In this document: positions 45,050-58,961 of the stretch, in pieces
Layout: the number at the start of each line of letters is the position of its first letter
How positions within the stretch are numbered: the stretch's first letter is position 1
Assembly (NCBI GenBank): GCA_036971475.1
Contig: JBAIZL010000058.1
Span: 1,598,001-1,662,000, forward strand
Direction of reading: 5' to 3'
DNA: 64,000 nucleotides
DNA from: Prosapia bicincta
Lineage: Eukaryota > Arthropoda > Insecta > Hemiptera > Cercopidae
The notes under the pieces: model-generated
What the model was told of the DNA's origin: nothing
The model's input: the letters and a program-made list of their open reading frames with translations, nothing else
The model's database searches: none
Position numbers and translations under genes: made by a program

Positions 45050-45095
45050 AGACACTGATGAAGATCGCTAAATAGCGATCGAAAACGTTCTGTTT
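45050..45095 (+). ncRNA. Hammerhead-ribozyme-like motif of the Penelope-like element
   Basis: About 115 bp after the coding remnant. Stem I strand AGACA (45,050-45,054); core CTGATGA (45,055-45,061); one extra A; stem II GATCGCT, loop AAAT, AGCGATC (perfect 7 bp); GAA (45,081-45,083); self-complementary AACGTT as stem III; C at the cleavage position (45,090); TGTTT pairing back with AGACA (one G-U). Hammerheads with minimal, self-complementary stem III, probably acting as dimers, are known from Penelope-like elements. The extra base between core and stem II departs from the minimal consensus, so activity is not assured. Confidence 0.68.
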
Positions 45096-45097
45096 CA

Positions 45098-45520
45098 GTA
45101 AGTTTTAACAAATTTACAAAATTTAAAGTTCGAATAGTCATAAACTATTGTTTACGTGTTTAAATTTTCAATCGTCGACTTTCTTTTTTTGCATTTGATG
45201 GGTTGGGTTCACCGTCCTGGACCTTGGATTGATCGGGTTCAGTAACTAGGATCTGGGATGTGTTGAGTTCAGCATCCCGAATCTTTTATTATTTGAACTC
45301 AGCAGTATTGAACAACTTAGATTAGTCGGATTCAGTGGCCTGGACTTTGGTTTGATAGGGTTCAGTAACTTTGATGTATGATGTGTTATTAGTTCAGCAT
45401 CCTGGATCTTGTATTATTTGAATTCAGCAATCTCTAACAACTTAGATTAGTTGTTGAACAAATTTACTAAATTTAAAGATCGGATAGTCATAAAACTATT
45501 GTTTAAGTGATTAATTAAGA
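45098..45520. repeat. Penelope terminal repeat pieces around an inverted 123-bp minisatellite arm
   Basis: A ~60-bp phrase (ACAAATTTACAAAATTTAAA ... ATAGTCATAAACTATTG) at about 45,108-45,160 recurs in direct orientation at about 45,459-45,515 with a few differences. Between them, 45,163-45,452 is the inverted complement of the left flank: the AAAGTCGACGATTGAAAATT end at about 44,002 and the 123-bp minisatellite units. I interpret this as fragments of the element's terminal repeats plus captured flank. Confidence 0.65.
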
Positions 45521-46574
45521 TTCACCGAACGTAATGGACTACGAAATTTAAGAATTGAAAATTTATTTGATCTAATTGTGCACGATAATAATCAGGAAAG
45601 CGTTTCCATGGCGTTTGATATCATCGTTCTGAGTTAGCATTACTTGCTAGATGAACAAGGGAAAAGTGAGTAAAAACACGAAAATATTATACGTTGACCA
45701 CGTAGATTCTTGAGTAAGTGAAAACCACCATTACTTTACTAATTTGAATTTATTAACATTTAATAACTATAAATTATTCCCAGAAATAATAATTTTTTAA
45801 GTGAATAAAAGTCAATAAGAAACCCACTGTTTCAAAGGCCTCGTTTAAATTTATTTATGGCTTGTATGGAAACATTTATTTATGAATTTCTATTTTCTTT
45901 GTCCCTTTCTTTATTTTTTAAGTTTTTTTAACTCGGTTACACTTTCAGAAATGAACTATATAACATTTAGTTCCCGAAGGCCATTATATAACTCAGAAAT
46001 GATAGTTTATTAAAAATGTATATTTACATTGAAAATAACCTATTGTAATAGATTCTTAGTAAATGAAGAATGGCGCATAAGAACGTAGGTCATTTCCTCA
46101 AAGCGTTATGCAATGCAATCGCGAGTCATTGAGAAATTATCTCCCAACAATGTGCACACGCTAAGATCGCTTTACAACAATGATTTTAATTATAGAAGAA
46201 TTGTTGAATGAATGCCTTATAATAAGGCCAATGCCTCAGTGATTTTGAATATCAAGTAGACAAATAGGTTGTCCAATGTGTTCTACCGCTGTGTAAAATG
46301 AATATTATTTTATTATATAATGAAGCTCATCATCTTGACGTTTATTTGCATTCACTATTTCTATGACTAAACCTTTGCTAAAACCACAAATTTAATGGCT
46401 TTCTTCAGCATACACGTTTCTCACATTCGTGGTGTTATTGCGTATCCTTAGTTACTGTATGATGTCTTGTTTGATTTTAGATTGTTTGAATATTTAACAA
46501 GTGGTTTAGCGAGTGGTTTTGTTATTTATTCAAACTCAATAAATTTTAAATGACAAAATTCTTGAATAACATAC
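45521..46574. other. AT-rich unique DNA
   Basis: About 1 kb with no gene or repeat recognised. Confidence 0.5.
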
Positions 46575-46846
46575 AACAAAACATGATACAAAAACGACTC
46601 AAAATTGAAGTAATCTATGATTATAAACAACACTTGACGTTAGCACAGATACACAACTTCCAGTGCATCTACAAAAATCATTGGTCAAAACGTCAAAATA
46701 CTTCAATTAGAACAAAACATGATACAAAAACGTCTGAACATAGACATAATCTGTGATTATAAACAATAAGTGACGTAATCACAGATACACACTTCTGAGG
46801 TTCATTTTTTGTATCTACTGACGTCAAAAAACCAATCAGACCATAA
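46575..46846. repeat. 136-bp tandem dimer
   Basis: AACAAAACATGATACAAAAA occurs at 46,575 and 46,711. The following ~130 bp align with scattered differences (ATTATAAACAA, GACGT, CACAGATACACA). Two diverged copies only. Confidence 0.8.
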
Positions 46847-49239
46847 TGGTTTGAAACATTTCTAGAGAGAAATATTGTGATACACAATTAAGTTTGTGCT
46901 GTAAGTAAACCTTCTATTAACGGAATTAGTGAACGTTTTGCATGTGTTACGCATAAAATTCGGTTGTTTATATTTTAAAATACTATTTTACTAAAAAGCA
47001 TATATGGAAGATAACGGGATCGAATTTAATAAGGTTTAACTAAATTTACCTCATACTTGTTACAGTAAAATCCAGTATATTGGTAAGTAAGTCGTATAAA
47101 GAATAAGTACATTATTAATAGAAAAACCTAAGATTTAACGAGATGAGTGTAAGAATCTATTACATAAGACATTCATTTTCAGTCTTGTCCCATTGGAGTT
47201 TGAGGGTGGTAGATGTTACCAATGACGGTTGGCAATTGTTGGTTTTGGGAATAAACCAATGAGTATTTCTTAAAATACTTTTTCAATTACACATCAATTA
47301 AAACCTTACATATTCTTCCTAATTCTCACAAACGTATTTATCATATTATTTGGTATTTAATGGACAAGATTAGGTTAAGTTATATCTAATTGTAACATTT
47401 ACTGCGCCTCTGAGGTAAAACCGATTTGCCGAGCTTATGGTGACAAGAGTTAAAAACAAATGAGTCACAGAAGAGTTCCATCTTTTACCACGAACAGTTG
47501 GTAAATCTTAGGTCGTATTACCAATGTAGCCTATAAGTTTTAACAGTATCATTCTTACCATACACTGGAATAATATGCTGACAATTATCTCTTGTTTATT
47601 GTGAATCTCTTCATCAGTTTCCTAGTTTGGATTACATTGAGTTACATTTTGTTCATCGACTTGAGATAGGATGAAGATGGGGTTAGCTAGAACGTAGCCT
47701 AGAGGGGTGGTAATACCTAGGGTGGCATTGTTTACTGTTGTGGAAAAGAGGAATTAGGCATGCATCCAGTATTTGGTAAACACCATGAAGGAGCTGAGGT
47801 TAGGCTGTCGGAGCACTGTAAGAAAAGTATTAATATTAGTATGTAGATAACTAATGGACTTAAATGTCCAAACATAAAAATAGCTATTTGTTACTTGTAA
47901 TACAGTTGTAGTATCTAACTAAAGGAATTGAAATAAACATATTTAAATAATTATATAAAATATACATTACAAATATATATTAAAATATATATTAATTATT
48001 TATAAATTATACTGAAATATTTTTTAAAATTAATCTAAAATAGGTGTCAGATTTATTAATGGTTGAAACCACATAATTTTTATGCTGACGTCACTGAATA
48101 AGTGAATTTCTTTAACAAAATGTTACGTCAACCACTTTCAAGTCAGAAAATTTGAAACCATGTTCGTTTCCTTAGTCATGTTTCTCCCTTGAGAGTAGGT
48201 CTTCTTCAGGTACGTGAGTGCAATAATTATGGTCCTTCACAATATATCAGCCAATGTTTTCACTAACTAGTCCCTAACTAATTTATTACTTTCAACACTT
48301 TCCATCCTGTTTAAGAGATAGGAATATATGTAATATAAACTGACTGGTCATATTAGAACAACAATAAAGTGAAATCGGATGTAAATCTTCAATTTCAAGT
48401 TCATCTTCTGAAGAGACTTAAACGGTGGCATTTATTTTAATTATTTATTTTCATCATTTACTCATCCTTTCTTAATTGCGCTATTTTCTACTAATTTCGT
48501 AAAATATTGCGCAGAAACGTTTAGGCGTGGTCCAGATACTGTTTAAATAGGTTTTCGTTTGACCAGGAAGTAGACCGTTCTATATTTTACAGTAACACCA
48601 ACTAGACGTTGCAAAAAACATCGCCTCTAGAGAACGTGATTGGTTTACCAAGGACCACCTTGTTGGCGATTCGATTTGATGCGTTTTTCCCACTGGTGTT
48701 GCGAAAATGTCGACGTAACAAAGGACAGTTTGTGAATATAATATTTGGATGTGCGTGAAGGCGAGAGGAGAGGAGAGAGTGCGATGACGTCATAGGCGAG
48801 AGCCAGGGAAAGTAAGAGAGAAAGTTTAGCTCGATCGACCCACGGCAGTGACAAGGATTAAAATAATGTAATTGTATGACAATTTTCAAGATAAAATACA
48901 ATTTTTTATTTACTAAGTTTCACCTCCATTAAACAATATAAACCCAGTTTGTGTAACATTTATAAAGATAGATGTTTATAGTAAACCATTTATGTTTTAT
49001 AGATGTGTTCAGTGTAAGATGTTAATGACAAAAAATTATCGAAAGTTACAACATTATTTACTTAAGATTTTATACCAGCCCAGGTAATGAAGGGCACTAT
49101 AACCGGCCTGGCATAAAATGTAGGTCTGCATAGTCCAAATTGATCGTTTTTTTTTTCAATACGTTTTATGTATGGGTGTTACTCCTTAGCATAGCAAGTC
49201 AATGTTTTAAAGTCAAGAGAACTTCTGCAGAGCTTATCT
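46847..49239. other. AT-rich unique DNA
   Basis: About 2.4 kb with no recognised gene. TGACGTCA occurs near 48,083 and 48,784. A 99-codon minus-strand frame at 48,602-48,901 has no recognisable motif. Confidence 0.45.
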
Positions 49240-58182: not shown

Positions 58183-58269
58183 TATTATTCAATAAATTAA
58201 ATATTCCTGTATTAGTGTATATTATTTAATCTTAAAAATATTCTAACAGGAAAACACATTTGATATTCT

Positions 58270-58352
58270 ATATATATATATATATATATATATATATATA
58301 TATATATATATATATATATATATAGAGAGAGAGAGAGAGAGAGAGAGAGAGA
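58270..58352. repeat. (TA)n then (GA)n microsatellite
   Basis: TA run to about 58,324, switching to GA to 58,352. Confidence 0.95.
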
Positions 58353-58650
58353 AATTAATTCATAAGTGTAACATAAAATCATGCGCCCATCGTAAAATAT
58401 TTACTATATTTCAATAATTTTACCAGGGGCCTTCTGACATGTTACGCATTGATTCAGAGAATGTCATTTCATATTCTGCGGAAAACGTTTTCATCGTAAT
58501 TAATTTTAAACTTAACCTGAAATATTTTGGAGATAGTTAGAAATAAAGTAAGAGAATGTGAATTCCAAGAACGAGTGTTATACTTGTACAGATTAAACCA
58601 TTGAACGAGGACGCTGATATTGGCCCTGTTGTCAAATAGAACCACCTCTC
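58353..58650. other. Unique DNA
   Basis: About 300 bp; nothing recognised. Confidence 0.45.
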
Positions 58651-58800
58651 TACCCCTCCCTCCCTCCCTCCCTCTCCCTCCCTCCCTCTCCCTCTGTCTC
58701 TCTTTCTCTCTCTCTCTCTCTCTCTCTCTCTCTCTCTCTCTCTCTATATATATATATATATATATATATATATATATATATATATGTATGTATATATATG
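58651..58800. repeat. (TCCC)n/(TC)n then (TA)n microsatellite
   Basis: CCCTCCCT-type repeat from about 58,657, pure TC to about 58,744, then TA/TATG to about 58,800. Confidence 0.95.
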
Positions 58801-58841
58801 TATATAATATGTTTTCTTGTATAATAATAAAAAAATAACTT

Positions 58842-58961
58842 AAATTATTCAAATACAAGAATTATTTATTAATTTGTATTCAAATCCTTATGATGTTGGT
58901 ACTGTTTATCAACTAAAAGCTTAGAATAATATATAATAAATAATTCTTGTATTTAAATAAC
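58842..58961. mobile_element. Decayed relative of the family B palindromic element
   Basis: Inverted ends (AAATACAAGAATTATTTATT at about 58,850 and its complement at about 58,937-58,957) between TA tracts, as for family B. The centre (58,882-58,927) keeps the layout CTTATGA, T, GTTGGT / ATCAAC (all six pairs possible), TAA, AAGCTT, A, but two essential core positions are changed (CUGANGA to CUUAUGA, GAA to UAA). Confidence 0.6.

Follow-up and report, generated by a model that had tools for sequence, protein, structure and literature searches.

Why should short repeats of unrelated families share one ribozyme-like RNA layout with the remnant of a Penelope-like element (PLE) in the same stretch of an insect genome? 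The question is raised by a 64,000-nucleotide window of Prosapia bicincta DNA (contig JBAIZL010000058.1, positions 1,598,001 to 1,662,000; coordinates below are those of the window), in which a PLE remnant and a set of small repeats, here called E1 to E5 (E4 being present as two copies, E4a and E4b), carry a motif resembling the hammerhead ribozyme. We suggest, with a probability of roughly three in four, that Penelope-type reverse transcription inserted the small repeats, using short hammerhead-bearing RNAs as templates. A sequence-only reading of this DNA had pointed to the shared layout at seven sites, assigned to a PLE remnant and four other repeats, and had taken the small elements to be non-autonomous relatives or riders of PLEs.

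On direct reading of positions 43700-44100, 44900-45300, 45420-45640 and 52600-59100, the order that had been described (stem I strand, CTGANGA-like core, extra base, hairpin, GAA, short self-complementary run, then one base and in the best cases the closing stem I strand) was seen at 7/7 of the sites, and the type I hammerhead layout, in its minimal form, is real in this window. We called a core intact where CTGANGA is followed by one extra nucleotide, a stem II of 6-7 bp, GAA, a 6- or 8-nt palindrome of the form A...T, and an H17 other than G; the conserved letters scored were C3, U4, G5, A6, G8 and A9, then G12, A13 and A14, then A15.1-U16.1 and H17. All ten conserved hammerhead letters, together with stem I and stem II, are present at five sites of three families: the PLE remnant (45050-45095, plus strand, core 45055, predicted cut after C 45090), E1 (52779-52827, plus, core 52786, predicted cut after A 52820, with a single stem II mismatch), the left arm of E2 (53658-53706, minus, core 53699, predicted cut after A 53665), E4a (57798-57847, plus, core 57805, predicted cut after T 57841) and E4b (plus, core 58141). 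A stem I of 5-7 bp, G-U pairs allowed, closes every one of the five. They amount to four loci, since E4a and E4b are tandem copies more than 98% alike. A fourth family, E3, has a damaged core (CCGATGA at 55112, minus strand) and lacks a contiguous stem I, and the core of E5 (58887, plus strand) has decayed to CTTATGA and TAA. Further copies, absent from the original list, lie in the right arm of E2 (53757-53803, plus, core 53763), where C3 has become T and A15.1 has become G, and in the left arms of E4 (57759 and 58095, both minus), where the core is intact, stem I is broken and stem II has one mismatch; E2 and E4 each hold two opposed copies of the motif. The small repeats that had been reported do exist, but they form three other families rather than four, the decayed copy at 58,882 being related to the family at 57,800 and 58,136.

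Could this likeness be nothing more than the chance resemblance of long hairpins? Our descriptor for the motif search was written after the sites were seen. In a looser form, allowing up to one core mismatch and 0-2 extra nucleotides, it finds 14 sites in the window, six of which score at least 8 and five at least 14, against a mean of 1.07 sites in 60 dinucleotide shuffles, which together hold a single site scoring at least 8; the reversed window holds one site, with a score of 3. Matches as frequent in shuffled sequence, which the sequence-only reading had said would refute it, are not what is seen. With the stricter descriptor there are four sites, where 100 shuffles average 0.03, and three against none when stem I is at least 4. 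Because the elements are inverted repeats, which inflate the stems, shuffling understates the chance of stem formation, and we therefore used a second control in which the real sequence and its stems were kept, simple repeats were removed and the core letters were left free. It returned 94 hits to the geometry, 52 of which share one unrelated set of core letters, and all ten hammerhead letters occur in four of the 94 (two of these being the E4 tandem pair) where about 0.0001 would be expected. Among 55 viral loci (456,386 bases), chosen for holding part of the motif, the descriptor made 25 hits, with three scoring at least 8 and none at least 14. Six further hits in the window, five in the minisatellite at 27.1-28.4 kb and one at 23399, were set aside, their scores of 4-6 being at shuffle level; the minisatellite itself (27165-28408, with a 45/90-bp period) gives repeated weak hammerhead-like hits of this kind on the minus strand. 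Neither copies of the motif nor relatives of the PLE were found in viral and prokaryote collections.

The covariance-model search that had been proposed as a check did not bear the motif out: no Rfam hammerhead family passes its threshold in the whole window, none appears in 44500-59300 at E up to 10, and none reaches threshold in three short stretches, outside which E1 and E3 lie. The sole trace is Hammerhead_HH9 at the PLE site, with 12.4 bits against a gathering score of 52 and an E value of 1.1. The many sub-threshold Rfam matches to microRNA precursors are driven by hairpins, and both results count in favour of a chance resemblance. The Rfam misses may be due to the extra base and the lack of a stem III. 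Given the excess of complete letter sets in the free-core control, and given that three families agree in the letters, in the H17 rule and in having the extra base, we find an origin of the likeness in chance hardly credible.

The extra base deserves comment in its own right. Exactly one extra base precedes stem II at 8/8 of the descriptor sites of these families, A in the PLE remnant and E3 and U in E1/E2 and E4, so that the rule of the minimal hammerhead, by which no nucleotide stands between A9 and stem II, does not hold here. The sequence-only reading had cautioned that this departs from the minimal consensus; it does, but it is not disqualifying, as a viroid hammerhead tolerates one. Parts of one study (PMC3705267) describe the plus hammerhead of chrysanthemum chlorotic mottle viroid as having, like the sites here, an extra nucleotide between A9 and G10.1, an A, and report that at this position A moderately lowers trans-cleavage, U raises it, and C or G are harmful; unlike the sites here, it is a plant viroid ribozyme from an unrelated context. 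The consistent extra A or U in these insect cores is a structural variant that can be tested. In folding predictions an intermolecular stem III appears in dimers of E1, of E2 (minus strand) and of E5, that is in three of the eight sequences folded; stem I is formed in the predicted E1 and E2 dimers, whose intermolecular stem III is 8 bp long, against 6 bp in the E5 dimer. Action as a dimer through a palindromic stem III has been proposed before, in passages of a review (PMC7761336) and, for a mosquito hammerhead, in a supplement legend (PMC3088659).

How did the motif come to lie where it does? In E1 to E3, E4a, E4b and E5, inverted 3' ends are joined head to head and face outward, an arrangement of the small repeats that the sequence-only reading had overlooked; the PLE remnant, too, has head-to-head inverted 3' ends. 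The arrangement is clearest in E1 and E2. E1 (52684-52936, plus strand) consists of a 44-bp inverted 3' end (52684-52727) joined head to head to a longer sense copy (52728-52905), which continues into a tail (52906-52936) of 31 bp beyond the end point of the left arm. It is flanked, flush with the element, by an exact 12-bp target-site duplication, GTTTCACTTTCT, at 52672-52683 and 52937-52948, where 300 letter shuffles gave exact repeats of at most 10 bases. In E2 (53548-53881) two long members of this family meet head to head, with arms 81% alike across the whole element: a tail of 32 bp in the minus sense (53548-53579), present on the left arm only, the left arm to about 53751 and the right arm from about 53752 to 53881. 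Its flanks carry an exact and flush 13-bp duplication, TTATAAAGGAATA, at 53535-53547 and 53882-53894 (longest exact repeat in 300 letter shuffles, 12), and its tail matches that of the E1 right arm at 30/32 bases. An 11-base palindrome, CTAGATTCTAG, lies at 52729-52739 beside the head-to-head junction of E1 and resembles the palindromes at PLE junctions of Adineta vaga.

Short, non-coding repeats with inverted ends, with a hAT transposase fragment nearby (51865-52401), might be taken for miniature inverted-repeat transposable elements (MITEs), non-autonomous DNA transposons that came to hold a hammerhead by accident. Such elements would end at their inverted repeats and have a duplication of fixed length. 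Here the duplication of E1 and E2 lies beyond a one-sided tail of 31-32 bp, not at the inverted repeat, and its length varies, with 12 bp in one and 13 bp in the other; moreover, E2 and E4 are each two motif copies set head to head. We consider a MITE origin very improbable.

The remaining elements follow the same plan in less complete form. E3 (54964-55194, minus strand) comprises a tail (54964-55000), an arm (55001-55079), the hammerhead-like segment (55080-55119) and an inverted arm (55120-55194), with the motif between arms that make the element 70.9% self-inverted; its 37-bp tail, as we would place it, fits the plan. E5 (58805-58965, plus), within (TA)n, has its tail on the left arm (about 58805-58837, minus sense, 33 bp), then an inverted arm, the decayed hammerhead and a right arm, is 72% self-inverted, and likewise holds the motif between its arms. 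With self-identities of 71 and 72%, E3 and E5 are older than the others. We note that the inverted arm of E5, read in its own sense, begins at the base right after the predicted cut (GAATA...), as if copied from cleaved RNA (58838-58881 and 58924-58965); this is a single element, and the inverted arm of E3, unlike that of E5, starts about 12 nt downstream. E4a (57662-57935, plus) has head-to-head arms at 57662-57902 and a tail at 57903-57935, 33 bp beyond the right arm, also in (TA)n, and E4b (57998-58271, plus) is its tandem copy 336 bp on. Both are near-symmetric head-to-head pairs, with self-inverted identities of 94.6% and 95.4%. In the E4 arms (57662-57902, 57998-58238) the sequence is identical for 60 bp at the outer ends and for 28 bp at the inner ones, and the few mismatches all fall inside the hammerhead.

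Together, E4a and E4b make up a direct repeat of 336 bp (57599-58324) whose hammerheads are on the same strand, an arrangement like that of a retrozyme dimer. One might then see in the small repeats metazoan non-LTR (long terminal repeat) retrozymes, circular-RNA elements with type I hammerheads, present here mostly as monomers; excerpts of PMC7229834 place retrozymes of about 170-400 nt with such hammerheads in many invertebrates, insects included, and like the elements here these are small and non-coding. Retrozymes, as presented there, are direct tandem repeats that yield circular RNAs, whereas in E1, E2, E3 and E5 the arms are inverted head to head and the tail is one-sided, and the E4 unit takes in (TA)n and an inverted pair and so looks like a local duplication. 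We judge a retrozyme origin improbable.

The small elements also share marks of insertion. An inverted-repeat screen of the window (run on pieces of 3 kb with E up to 1e-6 and no more than 40 matches for each, simple repeats being filtered) returned AT-rich minisatellite arrays at 13.4-16.9 and 21.3-21.9 kb and the hammerhead loci, the remaining matches being a 34-bp palindrome at 22815 and a simple-repeat pair at 58191/58717. The tails (31, 32, 33 and 37 bp in E1, E2, E4/E5 and, as placed here, E3) fall in the range of about 30-40 bp; one-sidedness is evident in E1 and E2, supported in E4/E5 and suggested in E3. The right tail of E4 and the left tail of E5 are alike to a degree reached by 0/200 shuffles. 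A common motif in the tails of E1 and E4, TTTGATAT, was rejected as not significant (21/200 shuffles). The predicted cut precedes the shorter 3' end by 85 nt in E1, 85 in E2, 79 in E3 and 61 in E4, and the end of the tail by 116, 117, 116 and 94 nt, respectively. The 3' regions of E1 and E2 are similar to a degree that none of 200 shuffles reached; E4/E5 were reached by 4, E1/E5 by 8, E2/E5 by 14 and the other pairs by at least 33, and we attribute the E1/E5 and E2/E5 values to AT-richness. The hammerhead regions behave differently: those of E1 and E2 resemble that of E3 (0/200 shuffles for each pair) although the 3' regions are unrelated, while the PLE hammerhead compared with E1, E2 and E3 was matched by 7, 8 and 10 shuffles.

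These marks are ones that have been published for PLE insertions. Passages on A. vaga PLEs (PMC3846280) describe inverted pseudo-long terminal repeats (pLTRs) with palindromes at head-to-head junctions, one inverted pLTR with a 31-bp tail, duplications of 8-10 bp that some insertions do not have, the insertion of unrelated sequences in trans, and self-priming as a proposed mechanism. The Anolis PLE protein cuts and extends both strands with a preference for AT-rich DNA, and starts at two internal sites, the interval between which is the 30-40-bp tail (PMC11167929). That element has its hammerhead cut at +26, and starts are commonest at +111-118 (PMC11167929), from which we compute a cut-to-start distance of 85-92 nt, compared with 61-85 nt in E1-E4. 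The head-to-head arms, the one-sided tail and the exact 12- and 13-bp duplications, none of them part of the earlier reading, support the link to PLEs that had been put forward for the small elements.

The motif, the inverted arms and, in E1 and E2, the duplications and one-sided tails are seen directly in the sequence; the use of a PLE protein, two-sided priming, and the activity of the ribozyme and its role are inferred. The template would be an RNA with a minimal type I hammerhead, a family-specific stretch and two reverse-transcription start sites 31-37 nt apart. The hammerhead, aided by an intermolecular palindromic stem III, might cut multimeric or read-through transcripts after H17. At an AT-rich target both strands would be cut by the PLE protein, either end would prime cDNA on an RNA copy of its own from one of the start sites, and the two 5'-truncated cDNAs would be joined head to head; such two-sided target-primed reverse transcription is the simplest account. 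It would leave a pair of inverted arms whose 3' ends point outward, only one of them bearing a tail, and a duplication of 12-13 bp. For E4, self-priming at the palindromic junction seems likelier, because of the symmetry of the element and the palindromic junction itself.

With the mechanism unchanged, the small repeats may instead be what is left of several autonomous PLE families: solo ends, inverted and heavily truncated at 5'. Portions of PMC3846280 and PMC8969392 record that 5' truncation and inversion are common among PLE copies and that pLTRs occur solo; the arms of E1 and E2 are unequal in length; and the 3' regions of the families are unrelated, as different PLEs would lead one to expect. 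In the other direction, two arms, the right one of E1 and the left one of E2, begin within a few bases of each other (alignment starts 52733 and 53751), as a defined RNA 5' end would produce, though there are two copies only, and the list of open reading frames of at least 100 aa has no PLE coding sequence next to a small element. We would bet on truncated ends no more readily than against them. Of the earlier description as non-autonomous relatives or riders, the PLE link is supported; that the small elements are self-standing non-autonomous families is one possibility beside truncated ends.

Several observations weigh against insertion of hammerhead-bearing RNAs by a PLE. To the Rfam result given above we add that the 3' regions of the four families, the PLE remnant included, are unrelated to one another, which may point to riders of different PLEs or to truncated ends of different PLE families. 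The 4/200 shuffles given above for the E4/E5 3' regions apply to arm plus tail under stricter scoring, and in the decayed E5 only about 42 nt separate the predicted cut from the shorter end. The possible duplication of E3 (54953-54963 / 55195-55205) is imperfect, 11 bp with one mismatch, and weak alone; those of E4 and E5 cannot be judged because both lie in (TA)n; and a search at the PLE remnant gave no flush target-site duplication. In the dimers predicted for E1 and E2, part of the core is drawn into a shifted stem II, so that the fold alone does not demonstrate an active core. In the Anolis work, hammerhead mutants left in vitro PLE insertion unaffected and RNA-seq reads had no ends at the hammerhead cut (PMC11167929); dispensability in vitro counts against a role of the hammerhead in insertion itself, not in processing.

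A stronger proposal, which we offer tentatively and think doubtful, is that the hammerhead is a required tag by which Penelope proteins take up RNAs and insert them in trans. On this reading, all that several tiny, otherwise unrelated elements have in common is a hammerhead lying a few tens of bases ahead of paired start sites. Were it true, it would be a first in vivo role for the PLE ribozyme, the role of whose minimal form is called a mystery in the sections of a 2020 review that treat it (PMC7761336), and it would define a class of hammerhead-tagged riders. Elements with little in common except the hammerhead, its approximate distance from the start sites and the marks of insertion amount to minimal constructs made by nature, and as such predict the RNA parts that a PLE protein needs in the cell. 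The small elements also offer an origin for MITE-like inverted-end repeats and a source of dispersed minimal hammerheads.

The PLE remnant itself is represented by part of a broken reverse transcriptase (RT) frame, open at 43948-44481 (plus strand), whose RVT_1 match of 24 bits lies below the Pfam cut-off of 29.6. It has 226 relatives at E up to 0.001, the names listed including Blattella, Onthophagus and Coptotermes, and the five relatives that were checked have RVT_1 only. An open frame in the same reading phase follows downstream (44509-44904, plus); it has no Pfam match and, going by resemblance, is probably a degenerate endonuclease end. The 3' region (45161-45451) recurs as an inverted copy at 43737-44024 (minus), 96.9% identical over 291 columns. 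No tool run on the window gave the RT remnant the name Penelope, and its naming as Penelope-like rests on anatomy, the hammerhead and known motifs; the earlier report of an RT remnant with a minimal hammerhead downstream is nonetheless supported. A tandem unit of 123-125 bp flanks the remnant in opposite orientations (43412-43991, 45194-45451), and 45104-45163 recurs nearby at 45454-45514. Elsewhere in the window a long interspersed nuclear element (LINE) with endonuclease and RT frames is present as two copies in opposite orientation (16992-21056 and 40661-43047), each in several broken frames, and its RT has one named relative (Bactrocera) among the matches listed. The LINE RT and the hAT fragment fit an insect-like genome.

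Much of what is assembled here has precedents. Cervera and De la Pena (2014) and Lunse et al. (2017) reportedly described the minimal type I hammerheads of PLEs, and a 2021 paper on PLEs is said to report inverted insertions and a microsatellite bias. Thousands of minimal hammerheads are stated to be dispersed in metazoan genomes in parts of PMC7761336 and PMC6155905. Minimal hammerheads in PLEs and animal genomes, and inverted PLE insertions, are already known; what is new, as far as the open-licence literature shows, is that tiny non-coding elements join both, resolved here to the base, and that their cores consistently have one base more. A search of that literature gave no paper in which PLEs move hammerhead elements with inverted ends, and a prior description is possible. 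Compared with the minimal PLE hammerheads as sketched in passages of PMC7761336 and PMC6155905, the sites here have the same type I order, conserved core and dimer-suited minimal stem III, but differ in having an extra base in every family and in sitting in tiny head-to-head elements, a setting of which those passages give no description. With the PLE insertions of A. vaga and Anolis, as portrayed in the portions of those accounts drawn on here, they share head-to-head inverted ends, a one-sided tail of 31 or 30-40 bp, short duplications and AT-rich targets; the A. vaga passages make no reference to hammerheads, and those insertions carry a PLE open reading frame or captured DNA, whereas the small elements of this window are non-coding.

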